A program made the position numbers and the translations under genes. A stretch of DNA of 64,000 nucleotides, from contig NC_073354.2 in assembly GCF_027580225.2 (NCBI RefSeq), positions 21,969,001-22,033,000 on the forward strand, given 5' to 3'. The DNA is from Misgurnus anguillicaudatus (lineage: Eukaryota; Chordata; Actinopteri; Cypriniformes; Cobitidae). How positions within the stretch are numbered: position 1 is the stretch's first letter; each line of letters opens with the position of its first letter. Positions 6,282 to 29,365 of this stretch are shown in pieces. The notes under the pieces are model-generated. The model worked only from the letters and a program-made list of their open reading frames with translations, had not been told where the DNA came from and made no database searches.

Positions 6282-7927
6282 AATGTGATGACACTAAAGG
6301 AAAGATTCTGCATGCTTGTTCTATTAATAGACATCTAGTTACCTGTATGTTTGTAGTTAATTAAGTCATTAAGATCAAGCCACTGTTTGATTAAGTGTGA
6401 TTTGCTTCTAATCCCTCTGATATGTTTGTTTTTCATACAAAGTATGGCAATTTTTCATATAGTCAAGCAACCAATGAATATGTGTGTTACCTAGGGATAT
6501 CACACATACTGCCAACATACAGTGTATATATAGCTTAAATGTCTATATGTATACTAAACAAAATGTGCATTTATACATTTGTTAATAAAATAAAAATCTT
6601 CCTTCCAGTCCTTGTATTATCTCACTCAATGTCTTTTTTATTGCACAGCCTTGTTTTTTTTCTTCACAGCAGTCTTAAGGACTTCTTCAATCTTAAGAGT
6701 AAAAATGTGTTGTTGCTGGTGTCTTTTTGAATTATCAGCACATCTCTTTTACACGAAGGCTGAGATCCTTTTTCAGCATACCCTCAGTGTTACTAAAGCA
6801 CTCCATAAAACATATATTAAGAACCATTGCTGTTAACTCATACTGTTAGAGGAGCCTCTTAAAGGTTCCTGTTGATTAACTGGAATAAATGTATTATTTA
6901 TATAGGGACTGTTAAAATAACCCACAGTGCCAATCCCAAGAATTGATTATTGCATTCACTCATTCAAGCACACTCATGTAGATGAAGAAAACTGCCTACC
7001 TAAATCTAGGGTTTTACTCTTGATGGCAGGGAATTCAAAGGGTTGGCCTTAACAGGTTTTCAAATACAAATCCCTTTAAAGAAGGCGGTTGTTCGTAATG
7101 TGTTTGTTGGTTGTTTGGAGTAGAAATGGCGAGATTTATAGTCTTGGTTCATCTTTTACAGTCCCTACAGTCTTTCACATTTGTTTTTATATAAGATAGA
7201 TTATTTTTCACTGCTTACAGTTAAAAAATGTCATCTTTAAATAGATAATTTTGTTACTGAAAATAATACAGTACTTGAAATGCTTTATTGTTTGCATATG
7301 GAGGAATGCTGTCCTGAGATATTCATGATGAGCAACTCCAAATAAAGTTTAAATATTTGATCGTTAGTGTCTTTAAACATGATTATTTTTATTTCTTGAG
7401 CATTGGATTATAATTCATCTTTACCTATTTCTAATGTATCTTTCGAATGACTAAGCATAATTCAAACGCGCCTATTAAAGGGATAGTTCACCCAAACATG
7501 AAAATTCTGTCAAAATTTTCTCATCCTCATGTTGTAACCTGTATGCATTCTTTTTTCTGATGAACACAAAAGAAGATATTTTGATAAATGATATATCACA
7601 CAGCTGACGTACCCAATGAATTCCATCGTATTTGTTTATCCTAACAAATTAATAAAGTAATATGTCCTGTACAACAAAGATAAAGTATTAAAATGGTATA
7701 AGTATGTGGAGGTTGGTTATTTTCACAGAAACTATAGCTTTATGTAAGCTACAGTGGTCTGTCTTCAAATGTATGAACTCTATTCCCACTGGCCATTGAT
7801 GTTCACTTGCCAGAATGTATTATTGCGAGGAAAGACTCATGGTAAACAGAAGAATATGCTATAGCTGTGAGAGTATGCAGTTTCCAATGAAAAATATGTT
7901 AGCATATTACAACAGATTTTATTCAGA
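6282..7927. other. 3' flank of thioesterase copy 1
   Basis: Overlapping AATAAA signals lie at 6584-6594, about 300 bp after the stop codon. Most of the rest is homologous to the flank of copy 2. A stretch near 7478-7570 is a partial copy of the MITE family seen complete at 17469-17800, recognisable by its 'gggatagttcaccca' end. No other gene is seen. Confidence 0.6.
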
Positions 7928-13599: not shown

Positions 13600-13605
13600 C
13601 AGAAC
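13600..13605. repeat. Left target-site duplication CAGAAC of the 15.75-kb transposon
   Basis: CAGAAC directly precedes the left terminal inverted repeat, and the same six bases directly follow the right one (29360-29365). Confidence 0.9.
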
Positions 13606-14216
13606 TATGGTGGACCACAAGAGTCATGCAAAATGCAATAACGAACTCCAATATTTAATAACTACCTGGACAATCAAAAATAGCAATTAATACATTTGTT
13701 TAAAAATTCATTTATTAATCTATAAATAAATAGACAAAGTTACAAAAAAAATCATTATGTAACATTTTATTAGGCAATAAAAAGTGAGATTATAAAAATA
13801 ATGTAGAAATGAAATATTAATACATTAATAAACAGTTCAAATCAATACAACAATCCACAAAAACAACACAAAACACCCAACAAGTCCATCATTCCAAATT
13901 GCACTTACAAATTCCCAATTAAACAATGGAACCTCAAAATGCACTTCAAAAGCGATCCAAAAAGAGAAATAAATAACTGGATTTATAAATTGAACTACAA
14001 ATACAGGTTTAAATTAGGCATTTAAAAGGGCATTTCCGTTTAACATTTCTGTTTTCATTTTCCCGATGGTTCTCCTTATTCTTTTCGCTACTCGATTTGC
14101 TTTTCGTTTTAGCTTCTCTATTTAGCTTTTCCGTGACTCTTTGGGTCCTTGCAAATGGTCAAATGAGAAATGCAAATTAACTATGGCCAGGTGGATGTAA
14201 CAAGCTCGCTGATTGG
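13606..14216 (+). repeat. Left terminal inverted repeat (611 bp)
   Basis: Aligned against the inverted right end. The outer 227 bp differ at 5 bases plus one indel, and the inner 258 bp at 5 bases. The middle 13833-13958 differs at 22 bases plus one indel, every substitution being C here and T in the inverted right end. The inner edge carries inverted CCAAT boxes (ATTGG) near 14211-14224, just upstream of the transposase ATG. Confidence 0.93.
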
Positions 14217-14280
14217 CTCTGATTGTACGTCATGCGTAGATTGATCTCGGATGAGGACCTGAGAAAGACGGTAACTTAAA

Positions 14281-17200
14281 ATGGAGGAAACGTGGACCAA
14301 CACTATAAATGCTGTAATTTCTTTGGCTAACTATGTGGAGAGTAACATTAATGATCTAGTGAACTATGATTATGCGTTGACGACATTGCTTAATCTTAGA
14401 AGAAACCTGGAAGCATCCAGTCGGCATGTTGAGGACACGGTATGGACTAAGTTTAATGACGTGGAGCGTTTAATTCGCATTGGTAATGTCTCAGAGTTTC
14501 AGCCCAGTATTGACATACCACAAGACCAACTACAAATGCAAATCTCACTTGGCATCCCTCGCAGTGAGATGGCAAAACGTTTTGGTGTGTCTTTGAAAAC
14601 ACTTAATCGCAGGATTACACGATGGGGGTTAAGGTAAGATAGCTGCTATGGATGATGACATACAGACACATAACGATATAAAGTTGTTTTTAATAGCTTT
14701 ACTTTTTGTGTACACAGACGAGTGGACTTGAACAAAAGTGTTAGTGACGCTGAGTTAGACGTGATCGTGTCTGACATTCATCGCAATTTCCCCAGCGCTG
14801 GCTACAAGCTGATACTAGGTCACTTGAGGTCAAAGCAACTTTTTGTCAAACGTAAGAACTTGATTTATTTGTACACTGTTATTGAACACTTTAAACAGAA
14901 TAATACTTTCAACCAAAATACTGGCCTTATGAAAATTGTGGGCAGACATTTGTTTATTATCAAACGGTTAAGTTCCGGGGCTCATACTGGTTGAGTCTTG
15001 TTTTAGGCTGTTGTAAAAGAGCTTATTGCTTTTATTAAATGTAACAATTAATGTCTTACAAGATCATGTGTTAATTATGCAATTACTCTATTTTAGGGAG
15101 CCGTGTACTGGCATCGTTAAGGCGAGTAGACGCTGAAGGAGTTCTGATGCGTAGGCTCTCACTACGCACCGTTAGACGAAGAGTGTACTCTGTACCAGCT
15201 CCAAATAGCCTGTGGCATGTTGACGGGAATCATAAGCTTATAAGGTAGGCCAAATCCGATGCTCTAAACTTCTGTTCACAATTGTCAGATAATGGGGGTT
15301 GTTTGGTGGGGGAATTATGTTGATAATGGTCTCACTCAGATCATTATATTTTCTTGGAGAAATTGTCTTACCCCTTTTTGTATTTGTTGTTAAGAGCTGA
15401 TTAGTAATCCAGTTTACACTTTAACACTAGTAGAATTTGTATGCAGTGGATGCACCGTGAGTTTATGATCTTGTTTTCATTGTGTTTGTGTGTGTTATGG
15501 TAGAGAAATTTTGAGTGTTTTATCTTACAGATTAGTATAAATGTTTTATATGGTATGCTTTTAATGGGTTTTTTGGTTAAGGTCTACATGAATTAAGTTT
15601 TAAGTTGTCTCTCTGTTGCTTGCATATGAATGTGTTGTTCCACAGCTGGGCCTGGAGGAGATGAGGGTGTCCATGGTAAGGATAGCAAAATGGTTGTATG
15701 ATGTGTTAGAGAACAAAGACACTGTTTTTACCACCAGTGTGAGGATTTATGTATGTCTTGAAGGGTACAGAGATAAAGCCACAGCATCACCAAGTTGTTA
15801 TGAGAAGGAGCTAAGGGGCCTAAAGGCAGGAGTCTGCTGAGCATTGGGATAGTACAGAGTGAAAGAAAGGCAGGGCTACTGGACCACTATATAATATACT
15901 GAAAAACTCAGAACGGGGTCATTATCATTTTACCAGGTGTACACCCTATGACCAGTATTGTTTCAAGCTGTCGGACACAATTCTTTAATAAAATACTTTG
16001 AAGAGAATTTTACATCTCAACCGTCTCTGATTCTCCTGAAAAAATTCACGACAGTGTGTGTCTGTTAGAGCTGCTGTGCAGAGTGGCTTATATACATTAT
16101 CTCTTAATATTTGCAGATGGAGAATAGTTGTGCATGGTGGTGTTGATGGGTTTTCACGGCTCATTGTTTACCTGACTGCAGCAACAAACAACAGAGCCCA
16201 AACTGTTCTGGAAAGTTTCCTGTCAGCAGTGGACCAGTATGGCGTCCCCTCAAGAGTCAGATCAGATAAGGGAGGGGAAAACGTTCTGGTGGCACGCTTC
16301 ATGGTGACTAATTGTGGAATCAACAGGAACAGTCACATTGCAGGAAGAAGTGTACACAATCAAAGGTGATTGATACTCCAATTAAGTATCTGCTTAGTTT
16401 TAAAATTTGTATTACCGTCTCATTTTTAACTATTTCTTGTTAGTTACAAGCAATGCATCGACCTAATTTGAACTAAATTCAGCTTTTAAATTACATTATG
16501 AATTAGCACAGTTATAGCTTTTATTTGATGTAAACAATTGTGTGAGTTTAGACATTAATAAATTATTTGGACAACTGTAAATGGACCAAATGGCTGTAAT
16601 AGTGATACTTGTAAATAGTTCCTGGACTAACAACTATTAATAAAATACTGACATTTTATTACTTGTTCTAATGCCCTTTCCCAAAGTAAACAAAGACTTA
16701 AGACTATTTAACCTACTACCTATACTGTAGCTTCTAACATTTGTTTTGATTAAATTTTCTAATTTAACACAGTGACTGCATTTATCTATTACATTGCATG
16801 TAAATATAAAATAAAATTAACTGTTAATTTTAACTTTTAAAGTGTTGTTATATGTAACAACTGACACTTGATCTTATTTTTTTTTTAGGATCGAGCGACT
16901 GTGGAGAGATGTTTTTGAAAATGTCCTTGATCTATTCTACAGCACTTTCCTTCGTCTGGAAGCTGAGGGGTGGCTTAATCCAGACAAGGAGACAGACCTC
17001 TATGCTTTACATAGATGTTACATGCCACACATCCAGTCACATCTGCAACAATTTCAGAGAGCATGGAACAACCATTCCTTAAGATCTGCAAGAAACCAGT
17101 CCCCTCTTCAGCTGTGGTCAAGCAAAGAAAGAGATAGACACACACTACACATTTCTCAGGTATTTAATCAATATGGAACCAGTCTTGCATATAATGTATC

Positions 17201-17425
17201 TGACTGTTACACCTGATAAACAAAATTAAATTACAGACAGATGATGACAACAGATGGTGGAGAGGCCCACAACGACCTTCAGTTCAAATTCCTGAGCTAC
17301 ACCTTCCCAGAGACCTGTCTGTGGTAGAACTTTCCACACTGCCAAATCCAACTGTACCATTGGCAGAGATGCTACCAGTGTACATTGAGACTGTACGGAT
17401 TCTTCGAGAAATGCTGGATCATTAA
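14281..17425 (+). CDS. DDE integrase-type transposase, 6 exons, 447 aa
   Basis: Exons 14281-14633, 14718-14851, 15097-15244, 16117-16365, 16889-17159 and 17237-17425 join in phase to 447 aa with no internal stop. Residues about 80-118 form a helix-turn-helix-like region ([22 protein letters not shown]), expected to bind the element's ends. The catalytic core follows: Asp205 in WHVDGNHK, Asp262 in RSDKGGEN and Glu297 in RIERLW, a D-D-34-E spacing like retroviral and IS3 integrases. After the core comes a W/F-rich stretch (LWRDVFENV, then RAWNNH). Introns interrupt just after the first Asp block and just before the catalytic Glu. The ATG lies 65 bp inside the left terminal repeat, so that repeat is the likely promoter. 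The family resembles the 'integrase core domain' proteins scattered in fish genomes. Confidence 0.9.
15245..16116. other. Intron 3 of the transposase gene
   Basis: 872 bp between GT at 15245 and AG at 16116. It holds a chance open frame (15616-15840) with no recognisable domain and is otherwise AT-rich. Confidence 0.75.
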
Positions 17426-17468
17426 AGAACGGATGAACATTGACTGTATATATAACTGATGTATCAAA

Positions 17469-17800
17469 TAGCAAAGACGATCAATTTAATGTTGAAGGGA
17501 TGGTTTGCCCAAGAATGAAAATTGTGTTATTTACTTACACTCATGTTGTTACAAAGCTGTACACATTTTTGTTCTGATGGACACAAGGGAAGACATTTTG
17601 AGAAATGTTTGTGGAACCTTTTTTCTACTATTGAAGTGAATGGGGTTCACAAATGGTTTGGTTACAAACATTTCACAAAATATCCTCCCTCCTGTTCATC
17701 AGAACAAAGAAATGTATACATATTTGAAGGCGAGTAAGTGACACAATTTTCATTTTTGGGTGAACCATCCCTTTAACATTAAATTGATTATCTTTGCTAT
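17469..17800. mobile_element. MITE between the two convergent transposon genes
   Basis: The two halves are inverted copies: the left begins AGCAAAGACGATCAATTTAA and the right ends with its near-complement at 17776-17800. The inner part carries the 'gggatggttcaccca' terminus common in cyprinid genomes. The inverted homology extends about 25 bp beyond that usual terminus. The MITE occupies most of the 610 bp between the two stop codons. Confidence 0.75.
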
Positions 17801-18034
17801 CAGAGAACCACTGTTTATAAGAGTGGTCTGTTGTAATAACAATAAAACAATAGGGCCTGAGCACTGAGGTGCTAGGACCCTAACAACATGTTTTTGTTTC
17901 AAAACTTATTTAAAAGCTTAAATTCAACAAAACTCAGTTCTGATTTAAAAGCTTAATTTTAACATGTTGAATAGTGCACTATAAAACTTCTAAAATGAGC
18001 TATAAATAAAGTGCACAATGAACCTGGTACATTT

Positions 18035-21000
18035 TTAAACTAATCCAAATGTTGGTGCCCAAAGCACAGCATTGCACATTTGTGCTTTAAAAGAATCATA
18101 GTCTTTGTGAACCGGTAATTTTAGAACAAGGACACACGTATTTGCTTCAGGAAATATTTTGCCAAGTTCTTCTGGAAAGACTTCAATTGTGGGCTGAGGG
18201 AAAAAACCGCAGGGAGGTATCGTGGAAGCCCCAGATGCGAACTCGAGCACATTCTCCAAAGTTAGTGGCGCACATTCTCCTTCTAAAAAAAAAGTCTTCG
18301 TTTATTTTAAATACCCAACAATAATGTTTATGTAACTTGAACAAGGTGTTTTATACTTAATGTAGGGCACTTGATAGTTACACATTCCAATAACAGTCTG
18401 AACTACATTAAGTTTTCACAATACATCTTAAAGTCATTTTTAAGTGTAGAAAGGTATGTATTGTATTTTAGGGATAAGACTAAACATTTGGCACAAAAGT
18501 TCACAGCAGCTGTACAAAGCAAAGAAAAAAAATTCATATTGCATGTAACAAAACAGACTTAAATTATTGTACCTTCAACATCAATTAGCCAGTCTCGCCA
18601 GTAGCATACAGTCTGGTTTTCTAGCTCTCTTTTGTGTGTCCCTGATTCTGAAAAGCTGACTTGGAAAAGTGTTGAGAGGTCGCTAGCCTTCAAAGGCCTC
18701 ACATCCTTCACAAACATGCTATGGAACAGATCTGGGTGTGCTCTCATCTCTTTGAGGAGTCCAAGTGTGGTGAAGCCCTCCACAAACCTGCATAAAAAGG
18801 CATTCAAAAAATTCCCAAATTACCATCTACAAATAGGTAATTGACTTTAAGGCCTTAATGATTTGTTTCCACAAAATGTACCGAATGATATATTTGAGCA
18901 CATAGCAGTAATTTAATTAATGTGTGCGTGTTAAACAAATACTTACTGTTGCAATGCAACATTTAATCTGCCCTCAACAAAGAAATTGACAGCAGATTGC
19001 ACAAGTGCATCCCTCTGCTTCAGTGTTGTGATGATTCTGCAAGACCCAACAATAGCCAGGCTGTCCTCTGCCTCCTCTATTGCAGCTTTTGCATCTTCAA
19101 CAGTTCTTGCTTCTTTAATCTAAAAACATTACAATCACTGTTTTAAATGTTGCATGAATTCGTATAAATTATTACTGACAGAGCAAGACTCACTTTTAGT
19201 AGTTTTTCTTTGAATGTGACATCACTCACTTCATCCAATGTTGCACGGGCAGTGGGTTTATCACACACCTGATTAAACAACCTCTCCGAGAAGAAATTTG
19301 GTGCCACACCTCCATGTATTGCACACACAGATATCATCCGTGCTATCTGTGTGTATAGTTTTCCTTCTAAGGCTGTGAAAAAAATAATCTTTATTTTCAT
19401 GACAAAACATGCAATGCTTAATGTGCTGAGAAATACGAGGAATCTTCCCAGTAAATATCTACTCCTACGTATAGGACTGTGTTAATGGCATTTTGTTACA
19501 TTTTTTTAAACAATTTAAAAATCATGTTTTTCGTGATCTCATTTTTAAAACATAAATAATACCTGCAAAATTATAGAGCTCAAAGTTCAATGACAAGCGA
19601 TTTTATTTAACAGAATTCGCTTTTCAAGGACTACAGAGAACGGCTGGTTTGGAATTCAGCCCTCTACTTCCCAATATAAGTGAATGACGTCAATATAAGA
19701 GTTTTTGATTAACCTCTGCCCACAGGACTATGCCAGTTACCAGCTAAACTAAGCTGCTGCTGAATCACACACTAAACCAGCTACACAATCAGAACTCAAT
19801 ACGCATTTCTGAAGGAGGGAATTCATAGAACAAGGAAGACATCAGCCCGTTTTTAGGACAGTGAAAACAAGGGTGTAGAGATTAGGGGTGGTCTATAAAT
19901 CGCCTGCGATTCTTATGCGCATCTCATCAGTAAAGCCGGTTTCATGATTGGTAGTAAATCACCATCACCTGCTTTCAGATGGAGCGGCATTTACTACACA
20001 GAGAACACGATTTTGCTGAGCTTCTCTGTGAAATACAGCTCAGTGTAGTAAATGCTGCTCCATCTGAAAGCAAGTGATGGTGATTTACTACCAATCATGA
20101 AACCGGCTTTACTGATGAGATACACATGAGAATCGCAGGCGATTTATCACCCACACCTAATAGAGATGAGTAACTGTGTGAAAAATACTGCATTTTTACA
20201 TACATGAAACATGAACACGTTATATTGTGCACCATAAACACAGTCAAAGCTTCAAAAACACAGGAAAAACAGGACCTTTAAACCACCTTTAGGGTGGTAT
20301 GTCAATTTTGTATTAGGTTTTCCTTACCTGCAAAAGAACTTTACTGTTCAACAACAATATAATCACATGAAGATAATACACAATGTAGATCAGTGGTGTC
20401 AAATCCGTTCCTGGAGATCTACTGTCCTGCAGAGTTCAGCTCCAACCCCAATCAGACACACCTGAACCTGGCAATCAGGCATTTAGGGCTCCCTAAAAAT
20501 TAGAGTCAGGTGTGTTGAAGCTGGGTTGGAACTAAAATATGCAGGAGGGTAGATCTCCAGGAACAGGGTTGGTCACCACTGATGTAGAACATACCTTGAC
20601 TATCGAGAGCCAGTGTCTTATCTGTCTCTGGTCCTTCAAATATGCTGGACTGATGAATGGCTTTCATAAGCAATCTTAAATACTCCCGAGTGGGTCCACC
20701 ACCATCTACTGAACCTTCGGATATTTGTTCACTGTCAACAAAAATGACATCCAATCTGGCCTCAGGATTAAACTTTCGCCGCTTAAAGGCCTGAACTGTA
20801 CTCTTTAGTATGTTATGGACGTTGCCAGTGTAGTCCCTGCATATGTTTATGTGATTGCTGGCCGGGCACGAAGTGTGATCAATCTTTTCCCCAAGTCTGT
20901 TCAAGATAGTTTTAAGGTCAGTCCTGTACAGTAATGAAAAAAACAAGAGGTAAAATGACTGCTATTTGCAACTGTCAGCAAATCTCATGAAAAGTCCAAG

Positions 21001-24000
21001 GTTAGCTTTAGTTAATGGAAAATCATATTTCAACAGAGTTTAATGAGGACCAGTTTATTTAACATCAGTTAATACCACCATGTAGAAGTTTTATTTTAAA
21101 GGAACAGTATGTAGGATTGTGGCCAAAACTGGTATTGCAATCACAAAACTTGTGGCCAAAACTGGTACTGCAATCACACAACTGGTGGCCAATATACAAA
21201 ATGACAACATAAACATCAGTTGAGGGCTGCAACTCCACTTTTTAAATGACAATATCCTGGCCAGACCACTGTTGTGAGTGATATAAGTATTTGAAATCAA
21301 GGCTTTGAACCTGTTCATGGAACGAAAACGAAAACCAGAAACTTTTGATGTTTTGCAAGGAACAGAAACTAAACCAGAAACTTTCCAAAAATATATGTTC
21401 CGGAACAGAACCGTTAATTGAAAATAATGGTAAATGGTAATACCGTTATTTTTCCGTTCTTTGATAAGATTTCTGTGCAATATGACTCGGTGAAGTTCAC
21501 TTCCGGTCGTCGTTGACTCATCAGAGAAATGGGAAGCTTGCCACCAGCAAGTAGCCCACTAAAGCCCAAGTCTTTAATGCTCAATCATAAGAGGTAGGCT
21601 ACCAAGTATCTCAAGATGTTTGTTTTTTTAATACTAATTAGTGGTGTAACAGTTGATCCATGATCCTTACAGATCACTACCCATGGTTCTGCTTGTTTGC
21701 GATTCGCGGATTAATACACAAATTTAAATAGGTTGAAAGTTGATTATTTGCATGTATTTCAAAGGCTTGCAAATGTTAACACTTAAGTGATTTTAAACAA
21801 TTTAACCGCAAAAAGGTGCTAAAGTGGAAAATGTTCTGTACGCACATGCGTTTGAATGTGTCTGGTCTTACTCCAATCATATGGAATTATCCCTATGCCC
21901 TTCAAAGATCAGAACTCTTGATGTATAAAATACATTTGGCGAATAAAGCACTGAAGAACACCGTAATTTTCACTTTATGTGGAGCAACTGTTTTTGCCGC
22001 ATCTTCTTCCCGAAGCGCTGTTTGGAATTTGTCCTCTGTCTGTGTGTGTGCGCATGTTTAAGTGCACTCAACAAATGTAGGCATGTCAGAATAACAGTTA
22101 TGCCGCTTACATAATGTAGCCTTTTTTAATGTTTGATGACACTTAAGGAAAATTATGTAGACTTATAATTAAAGTTTAATGTCCTAATGATCAGCCTACT
22201 TATTTGTATGTCCCACAGCTGACATGGAACGTTATTAACCGGTTCAGGAACTTTATTTTTTTGTTCTAACCGGTTCAGGAATGTCAACTTTAGGGGTGAA
22301 CCGAAAACCGGAAACGTTAAAATACTGTTTCTGTTGGGAACTAACCAATTGGGAAAAAATTCTGGTTCAAAGCCCTGTTTGAAATGAAAATGATTTCTTA
22401 ATGTCTGGTGACATATCAGGGCCATATTATGATTAATTAATATACATTTCTTACATACGGTTCCTTTAAATAAGTTTTATTTACACTGTGTGTCAAGACA
22501 AAAAACAGGGGATATTATAACGGAGGAATAATCTTTAAAAGATATGTTACTAAAAACATTTGCAAAACAACATACCCTTCATGAAAGAATGAGCTGTCCG
22601 TCTCTGGTAAAAAAGTAGGTGATGATGGCAAAGAAAAAGAAGTTGCTGGCATTGGAAGGAACTGGTTGCTGACACTGGGAGATTCAGCTTGATTGTTGGA
22701 ATCAAGTGCTGGGACAAACTGCAATAAATTAAAAACAAGAGTATTGGCGTACCTAATTTTCCAAAACCGAAAGTTACATTACATTATTCGAGTAAGCGTA
22801 TGTTGGTATAAAGTTATTTACTCTGGTAGAATTAACTACCATATTGTCCCGAATATAAGACAACTTTTTATTTTGGAAATGCCTTTCAATAAACAATGGC
22901 ATCTTACATTCTAGCTTTAGACTAGTGTTTCCCAATCCAGTCCTACATGGCACCCTTCCCAGAGTATTTAAAGGTGCTCTAAGCAAATTCACGCGTTTTA
23001 GACCATAAAATTTTTTTGTTACATACAGCAAACATCTCCTCACTATCTGCTTGCTGGGTGTCCGCTGATCAAACTGTAAAAAAAACGCGATCTCTGTAGA
23101 CAGCCCAGGCTCCACAAACTGCAATAAAAACAAAGTGGCCAAACCTACCACCAGAAACGATTATTAAGTGTTCCAGCCAACAAACGACAAGAAGGATTTG
23201 GGGGTGGGGGTTGGGCACGTTCATGAAAGCACGGAAGGGGGGGGGTTAGCTACGCTCCGTTTGTTTGAAAACAGTTCAAACATCAACAAAAAGTAACTTC
23301 ACACAGATTCCCTTAGAGCGCCTTTAAGATATCTCCATATATTAAACACCAGATTTAGTTCATCAGCTTGTTAGGGCGCACTCACATTATTCCAACCAAA
23401 CTGTGGAGCATGTTTGACCCCCAAATCTTGGTTCGTTTGACTAGTGTGATCATCGCGCCCTGGCCAGCTTGCAGAGGTGGGCACAGTGCTTCCCATTCCT
23501 GGTCCACGAGGCCCTCCTCCCAGAATGTTTTAGATGTCTCCTTATTTAAAACACCTGATTCAACTTATCAGCCTCCTTCCAAAATGGTAAACATGTCTCC
23601 CTAACAAGCTGATTAGTTAAATCAGGTGTGTTAAATAAGAAGGCATCTAAAACTTTCTGGAAGGGGGCCCTCGATGACCAGGATTGGGCAACACTGGGCT
23701 AGAGCACGGTTCACTTGGGCTCAGGCGCAGAACGCGCAGTGTGATCACAAATCGCGCCAGCGTTGTTCAAAAGGAGAGATGTCAATTGCACGACCACTCA
23801 GCTTTATTTGCCTTTGTAAAAACCTTCTGATGTAAGCAGCAGGGTTACATGAATGTCTAAGCTGCATACGTGACTGATCAATTAAACAATATGGCATGTG
23901 AGATGGCAGTGTGTCATCGCGCACCAAACCCCCCAGAATAAAAAAACAAAGACAGACTTTACATCACGATGGGTTCTGTTGTTAAGAGCGCTTTTCTTCA

Positions 24001-27000
24001 AAACAATCACATCCTAATGACGATAGCGTGCCTGGGCTCGGATCTGTCAAAGTACAGTCACAGTGTGAGTGCGTGCTTTTGGGGGAGTAGGGAGAATCAG
24101 GCTCGGTTTGGTATGATATGACTGCGACCTTAGTGTATTAATTAAGGAAACGTTTCAAACATTCTATAAAGAGCCTGAGTAGTGGAATCAGGAGTTTTAT
24201 ATAAAGAAACATCTAAAACTTCTGGGAGAGGGGACCCCAATGACTTGAGTTGGGAACCCCTGCTATAGACAATTAAATATCTATCATACTGTACACCTGC
24301 AAAAATGCAGTAAGTGGTGCCAAATACACAAACAAGTTCACCTGGACTGAAGCTTCTTGATAAACTCTGTTTACAATAAGGCAGTCTTCTACTGTTAATA
24401 AAATATTATTAGGCAATGTGTTTTTTTCTCAATGAGATCGACAGCCTAGGCTAATTGTTATTAAATCCAGATAAACTGCATGTGATAAATGGAACTATAT
24501 TCCATTAAAAGGGTTTAATAAATGTTGGGAACCACACTGGTCCCCTTGGACTTATAAAAAGTATTTCAAATGAAAGCATTTTCATAAGAAAAAGACGAGT
24601 TGGTATTAAAAAAAGCCTTTTTCCAAAAGGTACACTTTAAAGGGGGGTGGGAGTCATCTTATATTTGGGACAATACGGTACTACATAATTATTAAGGTGA
24701 GTCGGGCATAATGTCTAAGAGTACAGTTAACTATTCTCTAAAAATGATAGAAAAAATGACAGTAATAGATGCTTGTTTAGGTATTATGTGAGAACAGCTA
24801 ATAAAATTACTACCAGCAAGTACTATTGCAAATCACACCCATTACTTATTTGTGTATTGATATTAACTTAAAGAAATACTAATCAATATTACCATTAACA
24901 TTAGTTTGTTGACTTTTTTCTAGGCTGCAAATCATGGCTCTCACCTCCAAATCATCAATTTGAATCCAGTGGATGTAAAGTGTTCTTGAACCATTGATAT
25001 TGTTCCCCAAAAGTGTTCCAGTCATGTTGCTTTTAAGAGTTGTTACTGACAGAGCATCTTGAATGTGAAAATACTCTGTAGCATCATCCTCTTCTCCGAC
25101 AAAATCAAATAATATCTACATAACAAATGTAAAAAGAAATCTATTTAATACTAATTTTTAAAACCTCAAAACACTGCACAGTAATACCGCAATCCATGTA
25201 ATCACAATCAGAAAGTAGTGGACAAACCTGAATGGATTCAGACAGAACAAATTTTCTTGTTCTTGTAATGCCACTGGGGTACTTAAATCTGAGTGGAACA
25301 CCATCAGCTGGCTCAGGAACATCAGCCATTCTCAACTGTCTCTCATGTATAGCCTATAAAAATAGAATTGTAATAAAAAATAAAAATAAATGAGAGCTGC
25401 TAAATTTGCAATTATATGTTGACCTTGCTACCATGATCTCGATTAAGTCTAAAATGTAAAAAAAAAAAAACGTAAAACATGTCTGTAGCAACTAATGTGA
25501 TATCTTCAATTGTCTTGTCCAAAGTTCCAACCATATTCAGTTTACTGACAATGTAGACCACACTTCAGAGTCTGAAATACACTTGAGCATTAAAAATATT
25601 TTGAGAACATGTACATAATTTACAACAGATCATACCTTTCTACGTCTTTCTTCATTTTCCAAAGAATGCTTCTGCATATTATGCTTTGACAAACATGTAA
25701 AACAAAATCAAGACAATTATTTCCATTATCCAGATTATGCAATGAAGTGTATAATCAAACAAAAATAAAAACGTGCTGGTACTAACTTGTTGAAGAGGTG
25801 TCATATAAAAAAAAGAAGAAACATAATAATGTCCTCACTTAAACCCACATAAAATTTGTATGACATACCTTTTCTTGATCTGCAAGCAAAGACTCCTGGT
25901 ACTCTTGATCCTGCTGACAACGTAAGGATCGCCATTCATCTAAGGACTCCTGACAGTAATAAACAGATGGACATTTTATTAAACAGAATTTGAGAAACAT
26001 TGAGTAATGTGACTCTTGTGTCAGTGGAAGCAAAAGTGTAGTATCACTTTTAGAATTCAAAATATAACTTAATAAAAATTATGTTTCCCAGGAAAAAGCA
26101 CATGATGTTTTTGTGACAAATTTCATGAGCTAATCCTAATCTGTAAAGTGTAATGCTGTTTACCTGCATTGGCTCGCCTTCTGTTAAATCAATAAACTGT
26201 ACTATTTCAGAATCTGTGGATGATTGATCTATGTCCACTTCAGCTCGATCAGTAGTGTTGGGAAATTCCTGACCATCTGAAGGATAATTGCTTGTTGATG
26301 CTTTACTGATCTCACTTGCGGACCTTGAATGAATATCCAGAGTCAAACATAGGTAATCCATGTAGATTAATAACAGGCACATAGTAAAATAACTTCATTT
26401 CTTTCTAAATGTTAAGATTATGAAAGAAACTATGACTAATCATATAATTATCATTCGGCTGACCATCTCAACTGATAAATATATTTAAAATAAAGGGTTA
26501 AAAGAAAATACAAGAACAGAAATTATATCTGAATTTTCCCAAGACAGACTTTGCTTATGCCGACAACATAACGCAAATGAAATGACTGTACACTGATAAT
26601 AGTACAAGATTTTAAACTGCACATGTGGGGGTCCTGTGCATACCTGCAGCTTTTGACATGATCTTTGAGTTCACAGAAAAAAATATCTTCTTCACAAATC
26701 AGACATCTTTCCTTGGGCCCAGACACAACTGACTCTGGTTCCACCTATTGTTCAGATAATACTAGTACTTTAATCACTTTAACAATCATAGCAATACTAT
26801 AACCAGTACTACTTCGGTGTACAAAATATCAGCAGTGTCATTAGAACTTACAGGAGTTGTATCAATGTCCTTTTGCATTGGACGTATATAGATTATGGCA
26901 CTCTTGTTGTGGTCCTTGATAGATTTGATGGTATACCCTGTGTTCGGGCAAGGCATCACAGAAAGTTTTTTGCTCCTGGTCATACCAGACAATCTTAAAA

Positions 27001-27912
27001 GCTCAAAGCCACCACAGCTATTCAGTTTTGGGTAAGCTGTCAAAATGTGACATTTGAATTCCTCTGCACTGTTTTCATCACCTGTAAAATAAAAGAATAA
27101 ATAAACACTTTTAAATTTTGTTTGATTGTTAAAATTTGAATATTCAGTAATCACTGAGACTATCAACATTACGTCCTTTAACAACATACCGAAAAAAGTA
27201 AGTTTTTTCTCCCCAAGGCCAGCTGCATATAGTTTTTCTTTTTCTACTTTTGTTGGTACCATGATTTGATCAATGCTGTCCAAACAAAAGTAGGATCTTG
27301 TGTAGCTTGATCGACGTTTTGCAGTTGTACAGTGGCTACCTGAAGTCCTGCCAGCATATGGTGCAAAAATTCTGCAAACTTCAGCTGAAAAACAAAATAA
27401 TTCTTTACTGATATTCATCTAAATTGATAGCATGGTTCTTAGATCTTTAAAAACTGTGATGGAAAATAGACTTTGGCATTCCACCATGGTAGTCATCTCT
27501 CCAAAACATTAATTTAGTTATATCTACAGACATGAAAGACATATAGGGATGGTTTCCCGGACCAGGATTAGCTTAATCCAGGACTAGGTCTTAGTTTAAT
27601 TAGGAAATATAACTAGTTTTAACCAACAAACCTTACTAAAAACATTACCTGTGTGCATTTTGAGGTAAAACAAAGGGCACTGATGTGTTTTAAGATATGT
27701 AAGTGCAAGTTGTTTTCAGTTTGGAGAGCTCTTAAAAGTGTTTAAGTCTAGGACTAGTCTAATCCCTGTCCGGGAAACCGCCCCTTAATCCAACAAAATG
27801 TAATACTACTTAACAACGCAATCAATTATCTTCGCTCAGCAACTTGTAAATACAATCACTATAGTTAGGTTGCAATTGATTTGTTGCTGGTAAAATACAT
27901 TACTTTATTAAA

Positions 27913-27984
<72 letters not shown>

Positions 27985-28017
27985 ATATTTTATCAAACTA
28001 ATATATATACACATTAT

Positions 28018-28072
<55 letters not shown>

Positions 28073-28658
28073 GGACGGACAGATCGATAGACGGACCGAC
28101 AGACAGATAGACGGACCGACAGACAGATAGATAGACGGACCGACAGACAGATAGATAGACGGACCGACAGACAGATAGATAGACGGACCGACAGACAGAT
28201 AGATAGACGGACCGACAGACAGATAGATAGACGGACCGACAGACAGATAGATAGACGGACCGACAGACAGGGGTGTCTTTAAATCCGCCGCTGCACACGT
28301 GTGGGCTCGCAATCTAAACGAGTCTTTCAACATGAAATAACAATTAATGTTAGAATTTGCAGGTCGCACATGCGGGAGTTAACGTGCACATGTCCGGCAC
28401 ATGTAAAGCAGTTATTCTCAAACCTGTCATGCAAGACCCGCAATACTGCACATTTTAAACTCATCTTAAACCGCAATTTGAAAACCCCATGCTTGTGTAT
28501 CGTATGGTGGCTAGCATAAACTTACCATCAACAGGGTGTCTTGACAAGGTGGGTGTTGAAGTTGATGATCCTTGTGCAACACCGTCTGTGGATCGGCGCT
28601 CCATTTCACTAGCAATGTCTCTTAAAATTTTTGATATTTCGGTGTTAACGTTAGACAT
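18035..28658 (-). CDS. HECT-type E3 ubiquitin ligase with UBZ-like, SIM-like and UBX-like regions; 15 exons, 839 aa
   Basis: Exons in transcript order: 28658-28526, 27384-27190, 27081-26852, 26744-26644, 26323-26164, 25949-25869, 25671-25636, 25353-25228, 25115-24945, 22718-22576, 20923-20595, 19372-19194, 19119-18947, 18787-18573, 18282-18035. All GT-AG junctions keep frame, giving 839 aa. Residues 1-186 are unrecognised. About 200-219 is a C-x2-C...H-x3-C finger like ubiquitin-binding UBZ types. Exon 5 has a SUMO-interacting-type [11 protein letters not shown]. Exons 6-9 (274-411) resemble a charged helix plus UBX domain ([23 protein letters not shown]). A Ser/Pro linker precedes the HECT domain (about 460-839), with [12 protein letters not shown] and EANTC, whose Cys807 is the predicted thioester cysteine. 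The ATG lies 91 bp inside the right terminal repeat. Substrates are unknown. Relatives in fish are often labelled G2E3-like. Confidence 0.88.
19883..20159. mobile_element. Palindromic hAT-type MITE in HECT intron
   Basis: The arms are about 120 bp and near-perfect inverted copies, with outer ends TAGGGGTGG/TAGGTGTGG. Flanks are GTAGAGAT (left) and ATAGAGAT (right), a 7-of-8 match to a hAT-type duplication. It lies in the intron between the exons at 20595-20923 and 19194-19372. Confidence 0.75.
20391..20581. mobile_element. Short hAT-type MITE
   Basis: The ends are CAGTGGTG and its inverse CACCACTG. Flanks are ATGTAGAT and ATGTAGAA, a 7-of-8 duplication. It sits 14 bp from the donor of the HECT exon at 20595-20923 and may influence its splicing. 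Confidence 0.75.
21097..22470. mobile_element. MITE split by a later hAT insertion
   Basis: The left end TTAAAGGAACAGTATGTAGG and the inverted right end near 22450-22470 belong to one MITE. An undisrupted relative lies at about 53572-53858. The left half contains two direct copies of a roughly 32-bp unit (ggccaaaactggta...). The halves are separated by the element at 21298-22377. Confidence 0.75.
21298..22377. mobile_element. Non-autonomous hAT element, 1,080 bp, exact 8-bp duplication
   Basis: The termini CAAGGCTTTGAACC and (inverted) CAGGGCTTTGAACC are flanked on both sides by TTTGAAAT (21290-21297 and 22378-22385). No transposase survives. It interrupts an older MITE inside the HECT gene intron. 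Confidence 0.88.
22972..23326. mobile_element. MITE with AAAGGTGCTCTAAGC ends
   Basis: Inverted ends 'aaaggtgctctaagc' and 'agagcgccttta'. The same family, in the other orientation, is at about 61940-62282. Confidence 0.6.
23370..24132. mobile_element. Probable MITE with GGCGCACTCACAT-type ends, third nesting level
   Basis: The left 'gggcgcactcacattattcca' weakly matches the inverted right end near 24100-24132. It encloses a further short hAT-like MITE at about 23487-23694 with 'cagtgcttcccattcc' ends. Confidence 0.45.
23487..23694. mobile_element. Short hAT-like MITE, innermost of the nest
   Basis: The two ends carry CAGTGCTTCCCA and CAGTGTTGCCCA (inverted), and the interior halves match each other around 'acatctaaaac'. 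The target duplication is not clear. Confidence 0.55.
27546..27786. mobile_element. MITE family with GGTTTCCCGG ends, copy in HECT intron 2
   Basis: The left 'ggtttcccggaccaggatta' and the inverted right end 'gggcggtttcccggacaggg' match. Relatives lie at 51704-51918 and 61169-61398, and a partial one at about 54374-54590. Confidence 0.7.
27918..27977. repeat. (TA)n microsatellite, about 30 units
   Basis: An uninterrupted run of alternating T and A of about 60 bp in the first intron of the HECT gene. Confidence 0.97.
28018..28270. repeat. (GATA)n microsatellite passing into a 24-bp minisatellite
   Basis: About 55 bp of GATA repeats is followed by head-to-tail copies of a 24-bp unit built from agacggaccg, acagacagat and agat, first as a 20-bp variant. 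The minus-strand frames through it read as an 8-residue repeat (SVGPSIYL), which is an artefact of the 24-bp period and not a protein. Confidence 0.95.
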
Positions 28659-28748
28659 TTTGAGAGAGATCGATTAACGTAACACGACTAACTTACATCG
28701 ATCTTTCTGGCGCCAGAATTCAAGGACTACGCTAGCCAATTCCTCTAA

Positions 28749-29359
28749 CCAATCAGCGAGCTTGTTACATCCACCTGGTCATAGCTAATTTGCATTTCTC
28801 ATTTGACCATTTGCAAGGACCCAAAGAGTCACGGAAAAGCTAAATAGAGAGACTAAAACGAAAAGCAAATCGAGTAGGGAAAAGAATAAGGAGAACCATC
28901 GGGAAAATGAAAACAGAAATGTTAAACGGAAATGCCCTTTTAAATGCCTAATTTAAACCTGTATTTGTAGTTCAATTTATAAATCCAGTTATTTATTTCT
29001 CTTTTTAAATCGCTTTTTGAAATACATTTTGAAATTCCATTATTTAATTAAGAATTTGTAAATGCAATTTAAAATGATGAACTTATTGAGTGTTTTATGT
29101 TGTTTTTGTAAATTGTTATATTAATTTAAACTATTTATTAATGTATTAATATTTCATTTCTACATTATTTTTATAATCTCACTTTTTATTGCCTAATAAA
29201 ATGTTACATAATGATTTTTTTTGTAACTTTGTCTATTTATTTATAGATTAGTAAATGAATTTTTAAACAAATGTATTAATTGCTATTTTTATTGTCCAGG
29301 TAGTTATTAAATATTGAAGTTCTTTATTACATTTTGCATGACTCTTGTGGTCCTCCATA
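28749..29359 (-). repeat. Right terminal inverted repeat (611 bp)
   Basis: Inverted partner of 13606-14216 and of equal length. Its segment 29007-29133 carries T (on the inverted strand) at all 22 positions where the left end has C. The inner edge carries an inverted CCAAT box facing the HECT start codon. Confidence 0.93.
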
Positions 29360-29365
29360 CAGAAC
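29360..29365. repeat. Right target-site duplication CAGAAC
   Basis: Identical to 13600-13605 and directly abuts the right terminal repeat. Confidence 0.9.

Follow-up and report, generated by a model that had tools for sequence, protein, structure and literature searches.

A HECT ubiquitin ligase gene opposite the integrase in a young, probable IS3EU transposon family of Misgurnus anguillicaudatus, and one-strand A-to-G clusters in its inverted repeats

The DNA analyzed here, hereafter the window, is a 64,000-nt stretch of the Misgurnus anguillicaudatus genome (assembly GCF_027580225.2, contig NC_073354.2, positions 21,969,001-22,033,000, forward strand), and coordinates refer to it unless another contig is named. 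Positions 13606-29359 hold a complete DNA transposon of 15,754 bp that encodes a DDE integrase and, on the opposite strand, a HECT ubiquitin ligase. The element termini read TATGGTGGACC...GGTCCTCCATA and are flanked by an exact 6-bp target site duplication (TSD), as a preliminary description of this DNA had claimed. The same description reported equal 611-bp terminal inverted repeats (TIRs). The two TIRs are indeed of equal length, but their sequences differ, with 578 of 612 positions identical (94%) and two gaps. The integrase ATG sits 64 bp inward of the left TIR and the HECT ATG 90 bp inward of the right TIR, and the two convergent genes are separated by 609 bp between their stops. The element contains 29 stop-to-stop open reading frames (ORFs) of at least 75 aa, of which 13 are exonic and 3 fall in a microsatellite; a Pfam scan of the other 13 gave no match at E 0.01. 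Because other copies exist in the same genome, a chance origin of this structure is excluded.

The integrase gene model joins its exons across five GT-AG introns into a single open frame of 447 codons. Its predicted product contains the catalytic triad D205, D262, and E297 and matches the Pfam rva_4 integrase core (E = 1.6e-85); the Pfam rve profile gives 1.7e-6 and 28.6 bits, below its cut-off of 32.6. In the N-terminal part, Pfam returned weak helix-turn-helix model scores and nothing else, and an N-terminal HHCC zinc domain is absent. The label "IS3-like" given to this integrase in the preliminary description needs correction: the bacterial IS481 profile (5.5e-17) fits better than the bacterial IS3 profile (7.4e-11), both scoring far under cut-off, and the eukaryotic group in question is IS3EU. 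The ligase gene also forms a single open frame, of 839 codons, and all 14 of its introns are GT-AG. A Pfam HECT domain covers residues 552-838 (4.5e-11, 43.4 bits against a cut-off of 23.9), and the C lobe carries the catalytic Cys807 and a Phe at position -4 from the C terminus. By these sequence criteria the transposon protein is a HECT E3 ligase, and ubiquitin transfer is predicted for it. For both proteins, the earlier account of length, in-frame junctions, and catalytic residues proved correct. The closest HECT chains of solved structure are those of AREL1 (1.1e-5) and Itch (0.0026).

Two further regions of the ligase bear resemblance to domains of the ubiquitin system. Residues 260-364 resemble the helix plus UBX of FAF1 (E 0.0007-0.0011), and the Pfam UBX match there reaches E 0.0069 and 17.0 bits, under the cut-off of 21. 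UBX domains contact p97 through an FPR loop. This loop was looked for in the UBX-like region and is absent; with the profile also below cut-off, the region lacks the marks of a UBX-type p97 cofactor. In the N-terminal half, residues 200-219 follow the pattern C-x2-C-x11-H-x3-C, which is that of the UBZ4-type ubiquitin-binding zinc finger, known from RAD18. Comparison of this finger with solved structures gave a best E of 0.99, which is not significant, and it has no Pfam match.

Table 1. Coordinates of the transposon and its parts in the window
Feature	Position	Strand	Basis or remark
Left TSD, CAGAAC	13600..13605	.	identical to 29360-29365
Left TIR, 611 bp	13606..14216	+	carries the cluster of 21 T>C at 13833-13958
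DDE integrase/transposase gene, 6 exons, 447 aa	14281..17425	+	gene model, Pfam, catalytic residues
Integrase exons 1-6	14281-14633, 14718-14851, 15097-15244, 16117-16365, 16889-17159, 17237-17425	+	
Imperfect palindrome between the convergent genes	17468..17800	.	A>G/T>C clusters in copies C8, C2, C9
HECT ubiquitin ligase gene, 15 exons, 839 aa	18035..28658	-	gene model, Pfam, Cys807, Phe at -4
HECT exons 1-5	28658-28526, 27384-27190, 27081-26852, 26744-26644, 26323-26164	-	
HECT exons 6-10	25949-25869, 25671-25636, 25353-25228, 25115-24945, 22718-22576	-	
HECT exons 11-15	20923-20595, 19372-19194, 19119-18947, 18787-18573, 18282-18035	-	
Palindromic stretch, 86% self-complementary, HECT intron	19881..20161	.	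no cluster in the copies compared
Palindromic stretch, 72%, HECT intron	20386..20586	.	no cluster in the copies compared
Palindromic stretch, 75%, HECT intron	23481..23699	.	A>G cluster in copy C4
Microsatellite (TA, GATA and related), HECT intron 1	27895..28280	.	sequence read; excluded from cluster counts
Right TIR, 611 bp	28749..29359	-	inverted match to left end
Right TSD, CAGAAC	29360..29365	.	identical to 13600-13605

One genome, of 1.12 Gb in 61 contigs, was searched, and all copy counts are from it. The left end as query gave at least 70 matches. At least eight long copies were found including that of the window, seven of them two-ended and one, copy G, one-ended; besides the window copy these are C29, C8, C2, C9, C4, and two copies, F and G, at C18:21.114-21.153M. 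Identity to the window copy is 97-99% in their longest pieces, falls to 92-96% in shorter ones near the right end, and is 77-81% in two pieces of 341 bp. Exons of both genes lie between the ends in all seven two-ended copies, the window's included, on six contigs. The possibility raised in the preliminary description, that the ends elsewhere never enclose a HECT gene, is thereby answered in favor of the pairing. Copy G has one end and HECT exons 1-11, without the integrase. Both genes are intact, with open frames and splice sites, in three of the seven (window, C29, and C8). The remaining four carry lesions: part of HECT exon 9 is missing and the integrase exon-3 donor is altered in C2, HECT codon 837 is a stop in C9, integrase exon 1 has a 5-bp deletion in C4, and the donor at integrase exon 3 is altered in F. 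Exact 6-bp duplications surround five of the seven two-ended copies, C8 and F having none, and TATGG..CCATA ends are present in six, the window's among them, the right end of C8 being one base short. In non-coding DNA each copy departs from the majority base at 0.2-1.0% of positions, and the family is therefore young.

Many contigs also contain short hairpin elements, mostly of ~1.2 kb, in which two copies of the 611-bp end surround a short loop. In 24 such loci examined, with 22 end pairs measurable, 14 pairs had exact 6-bp TSDs and another 3 had TSDs with a single mismatch, as would be expected if the same integrase mobilizes them. When the flanks of the window copy were joined and searched against the same genome for an empty site, they matched only themselves, with nothing across the join; the left 140 bases also match a dispersed repeat. 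The flanks of the C9 copy (C9:9343690-9364412) give the impression that it may lie inside an older repeat, and a paralogous empty site may therefore exist. Copies F and G stand back to back in opposite orientation (C18:21114641-21153470), 0.83 Mb from the window copy, and have extra DNA at the same element position (~6971-6975) with no matching TSD, which marks a rearranged locus.

The association of the two genes extends well beyond this family. Genome searches, for which each protein and the HECT profile served as queries, listed 69 integrase and 86 HECT loci; the lists hold the best-scoring candidates, exons of one gene were collapsed to one locus, and the limit for pairing was 15 kb. A convergent HECT exon lies within this distance of 17 of the 69 listed integrase loci, 7 of the window family and 10 outside it (C12 at 0.52, 2.92, and 5.14 Mb, C14, C7, C16, C19, C21, C22, and C25), against a chance expectation of ~0.16 pairs if loci are assumed to be evenly spread. 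Among the listed loci there was no divergent pair and there were two same-strand pairs, both in a repeated region of C13. The integrases of the ten outside pairs are 37-55% identical to the window's. These loci represent at most eight families: the C12:516k family occurs again at C14, and C16 is 97-98% identical to C25. A HECT exon matches the window ligase directly in nine of the ten, and at C19 it was recognized by the HECT profile alone. The catalytic residues are preserved in the diverged pairs wherever the stretch was recovered, and the HECT TC motif in nine of the ten loci, those whose exon was recovered.

The two proteins also changed in step. A Mantel test of integrase-core against HECT C-terminal exon distances in eight families gave r = 0.862 (p < 0.0001), and r = 0.753 (p = 0.001) without C25; C19 and C21, where a stretch was absent or of insufficient length, were left out, and so was C14, a further copy from family A (C12:516k). 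The exons used are short (HECT ~80 residues), and the result is therefore an agreement of distances, not a resolved tree. Collectively, these comparisons indicate that the integrase-HECT pairing is old, the two genes appearing to have traveled and diverged together for a long time, and such co-travel and co-change suggests that the ligase is useful to the transposon. HECT exon matches also occur in two regions of ~2 Mb each, C13:32.6-34.5M with at least 14 and C16:36.4-38.4M with at least 10 near-identical matches, the C13 region holding in addition at least 9 integrase fragments, 69% identical. Each of these HECT-rich regions is a large array or amplified region.

Within the family, changes are half as dense in HECT exons as in non-coding DNA (11.9 against 22.8 per kb, p = 0.0004); for this test the TIRs, the microsatellite, and the palindromes at 17456-17815 and 23480-23700 were masked and the other two palindromes kept. 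The ratio of nonsynonymous to synonymous change per site (pN/pS) within the family is 0.42 for HECT (p = 0.048), copy C2 being excluded for HECT and copy G for both genes. When the window family is compared with family A and with family B (C12:5.14M), pN is 0.28-0.36 and pS 0.70-0.82, although dS is saturated in three of the four between-family comparisons and these therefore give no clean dN/dS. The proposal in the preliminary description that the ligase is kept by selection is thus supported on three counts, exon density, pN/pS, and a between-family pN below pS. Selection on the ligase is supported by these sequence comparisons; on its predicted catalytic activity it is not proven.

We consider it probable that the element belongs to a young, autonomous IS3EU cut-and-paste family in which a HECT ligase is the regular second gene and would act as an accessory of transposition. 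Several observations weigh against this reading. Most of the listed integrase loci, 52 of 69, lack a convergent HECT exon inside the 15-kb limit; many of these are fragments or are limited by best-candidate scoring, and some perhaps truly have no ligase. Near-identical single-exon integrases with 370-aa frames at C5:11649963, C16:90369, and C17:10959309 are 43% identical to the window's, have no listed HECT nearby, and are perhaps a separate IS3EU lineage without the ligase. Conversely, C6 carries part of a HECT gene (the N-terminal portion, 67% identical) with none of the listed integrases closer than 15 kb. A search for TIRs in ~15 kb around each of pairs A and B found none, so completeness as elements is unsupported there. 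The integrase itself shows a change density of 18.6 per kb, not significantly different from non-coding DNA (p = 0.37), and a within-family pN/pS of 0.50 that is likewise not significant (p = 0.14). On these figures, constraint on the ligase is at least as strong as on the integrase. On the left side of pair A (C12:511300-516000) repeated GATATCTGTAA / GACTAGTC / TATGGCAAGCCGTTTTAAC motifs were seen, perhaps subterminal repeats.

As to how such an element would work, each long end may serve both as the transposase binding site and as the promoter of the adjoining gene, and the integrase would cut and carry out strand transfer with a 6-bp stagger. The ligase would ubiquitylate a nuclear target, either a host factor or a component of the transpososome, that would otherwise restrict expression or movement of the transposon. 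That the ligase favors transposition in this accessory role has, in our estimate, slightly better than an even chance. The second-gene slot opposite the transposase is used in some fungal IS3EU as well, by an alpha-kinase. An intact two-gene system in young copies would offer a route to ubiquitylation control of DNA transposition in vertebrates, and some lineage-specific HECT genes in fish gene sets may derive from the element lineage.

Other accounts of the ligase must explain the same observations. It could be a passenger that derives from a single capture of a host HECT gene, has no role, and owes its open frame solely to the youth of the copies. The low non-coding divergence from the majority fits this, as does the fact that several copies (C2, C9, and C4) are already broken; but the convergent pair persists at ten loci outside the family whose integrases are 37-55% identical to the window's, integrase and HECT distances co-vary between families, between-family pN is far under pS, and HECT exons change at half the non-coding rate. 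We therefore regard a passenger as very improbable. Still less credible, to the point of being negligible, is a host HECT locus hit repeatedly by insertions. Fish genomes do hold large HECT families, yet seven two-ended copies on six contigs have common genes and introns and are 97-99% identical in their longest pieces, and there are the ten diverged convergent pairs besides. Two further accounts grant the ligase a function and assign it differently. As a self-limiting device it would ubiquitylate its own integrase and hold copy number low, in agreement with the small number of long copies (at least eight) and with the co-divergence of the proteins, which fits a direct protein-protein partnership. 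Selection on individual transposon copies usually favors more, not less, transposition, and we find self-limitation unlikely, if the least unlikely of these alternatives. Alternatively, the UBX-like domain could recruit p97/VCP, which would strip the integrase from its product in a ubiquitin-driven disassembly, for which the removal of MuA from its product by ClpX is a model. The similarity of residues 260-364 to FAF1 and the HECT domain within the same chain speak for this idea, and the subthreshold Pfam UBX score and absent FPR loop speak against it, leaving it a rather doubtful one. An accessory that favors transposition remains the role we prefer for the ligase.

A separate feature of the family is found in its inverted repeats. 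We compared 58 inverted-end arms, 15 from long copies and 43 from hairpin elements. Eleven arms (six long-copy, five hairpin) carry at least nine A>G or T>C changes that are clustered and show an excess in one direction (p < 0.01, uncorrected), and substitutions of other types never exceed seven in any of the 58. The left end of the window copy has 24 T>C and zero A>G changes; in its main cluster (Table 1), 21 of 44 Ts are changed, all T>C, with no other change. Cytosine deamination was considered as the source of the TIR mismatches and rejected, since relative to the 57 other arms the changes are T-to-C (A-to-G on the other strand). Clusters in other copies occupy the window-equivalent positions 13740-13799, 17480-17795, 23619-23674, and 28924-29211. 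The left ends of C9 and F have ten cluster sites in common and therefore record one event by descent. With a cluster defined as at least five identical substitutions, the eight long copies contain 18, of which six in the microsatellite (28025-28137) were set aside. All 12 that remain (11 if C9/F is counted once) consist of A>G or T>C changes, and each falls in an inverted repeat. Inverted-repeat sequence accounts for 2,256 of 15,354 bp and is divided among six stretches, two of which are free of clusters.

The changed adenines have a characteristic neighborhood. In the ends, the 5' neighbor is T or A at 139 of 146 changed As compared with 201 of 276 unchanged ones, T being favored (p = 3e-11), and when copy F is omitted and each site counted once, at 96 of 102 ever-changed compared with 113 of 159 never-changed sites (p = 2e-6). 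The internal palindromes show the same preference for T or A (65 of 75 changed against 29 of 60 unchanged, p = 1.7e-6), with T alone not favored (p = 0.84). ADAR prefers a 5' U or A neighbor, and the cluster pattern resembles ADAR editing, here seen in genomic DNA. It is possible, with a chance just short of even, that both parts of a joint reading hold, namely that adenosine editing was written into germline DNA where the element pairs with itself and that the ligase is an ancient, dedicated partner of the integrase. Editing could reach the DNA by direct action on the DNA strand of RNA:DNA hybrids or through repair templated on edited RNA. In vitro, ADAR1 edits the DNA strand of RNA:DNA hybrids at A-C mismatches (PMC7955049; cf. 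PMC12925331). Fully matched telomeric hybrids are left unedited in the experiments described there (PMC7955049), a result that speaks against plain editing of perfectly paired hybrids.

As a source of the clusters, gene conversion from a divergent subfamily is disfavored by their purity (21 of 21 T>C in the window's), by the neighbor context of the changes, and by the other arms, which carry T at nearly all cluster sites; conversion from an unsampled donor could still account for them. Patch synthesis by Pol eta or Pol iota is possible. Both polymerases have a WA preference; with Pol eta, A>T and A>C should also appear. Among the papers listed by the literature searches, none described heritable ADAR-like traces in DNA. 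The A-to-G clusters may be more surprising than the gene pairing, and they make heritable adenosine deaminase marks in nuclear DNA a testable question.

Comparison with known systems places the element as follows. Polinton/Maverick transposons are 15-20 kb long with long inverted ends, and they resemble the window element in size, ends, 6-bp TSD, and integrase. They were considered for these reasons and rejected because the protein-primed DNA polymerase and capsid-type genes expected of them are missing: Pfam scans of the two genes and of the 13 other ORFs found no domain of the polymerase, ATPase, protease, or capsid kind. The 6-bp TSD, the TATGG..CCATA ends, and the rve-like DDE integrase are those of IS3EU, to which superfamily the element is provisionally assigned on published descriptions of TSD, ends, and integrase kind. 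IS3EU, grouped with GingerRoot, is described as having TA..TA ends and usually 6-bp duplications, and 45 families, 17 of them autonomous, were in Repbase in May 2022 (PMC10045372); a narrower end consensus, TAYGG..CCRTA, has been given (PMC12730594), and among four teleosts tabulated elsewhere, zebrafish is the only one for which IS3EU copies are printed (PMC4746887). The window element shares the duplication, the TA..TA inverted ends, and the integrase with this superfamily and differs from it in its 15.75-kb length, its genes with 5 and 14 introns, and its HECT ligase; HECT is not mentioned in the portions of PMC10045372 and PMC12730594 consulted.

The related integrase of IS481EU from parabasalids is a further point of comparison; the window integrase likewise has its best score against the profile of bacterial IS481. 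IS481EU has TSDs of ~4, 15, or 25 bp and TNT..AYA ends, according to the available text of PMC10045372, and was rejected because the window element has a 6-bp TSD and TATGG ends. The statement in the preliminary description that host-like enzymes are rare in DNA transposons needs tempering, as they are not unheard of: some fungal IS3EU are reported to carry an alpha-kinase gene opposite the transposase and a TET/JBP dioxygenase gene between them (PMC12730594). These share with the window element the second enzyme gene opposite the transposase, the 6-bp TSD, and the TAYGG..CCRTA ends, and differ in having a kinase and a dioxygenase in place of a ubiquitin ligase, and in their fungal hosts. Helentrons with VTD and OTU deubiquitinases likewise encode enzymes of the ubiquitin system; theirs remove ubiquitin, sit within the Helitron frame, and belong to elements described as moving by a rolling circle (PMC9741609). 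Among the papers listed by the literature searches, which lay outside Repbase and most subscription journals, where an earlier notice may exist, none was found to describe a HECT ligase in a DNA transposon. Thus, what is known here is the IS3EU superfamily, and what is apparently new, as judged from the sequences compared, is a HECT ligase as its regular second gene.

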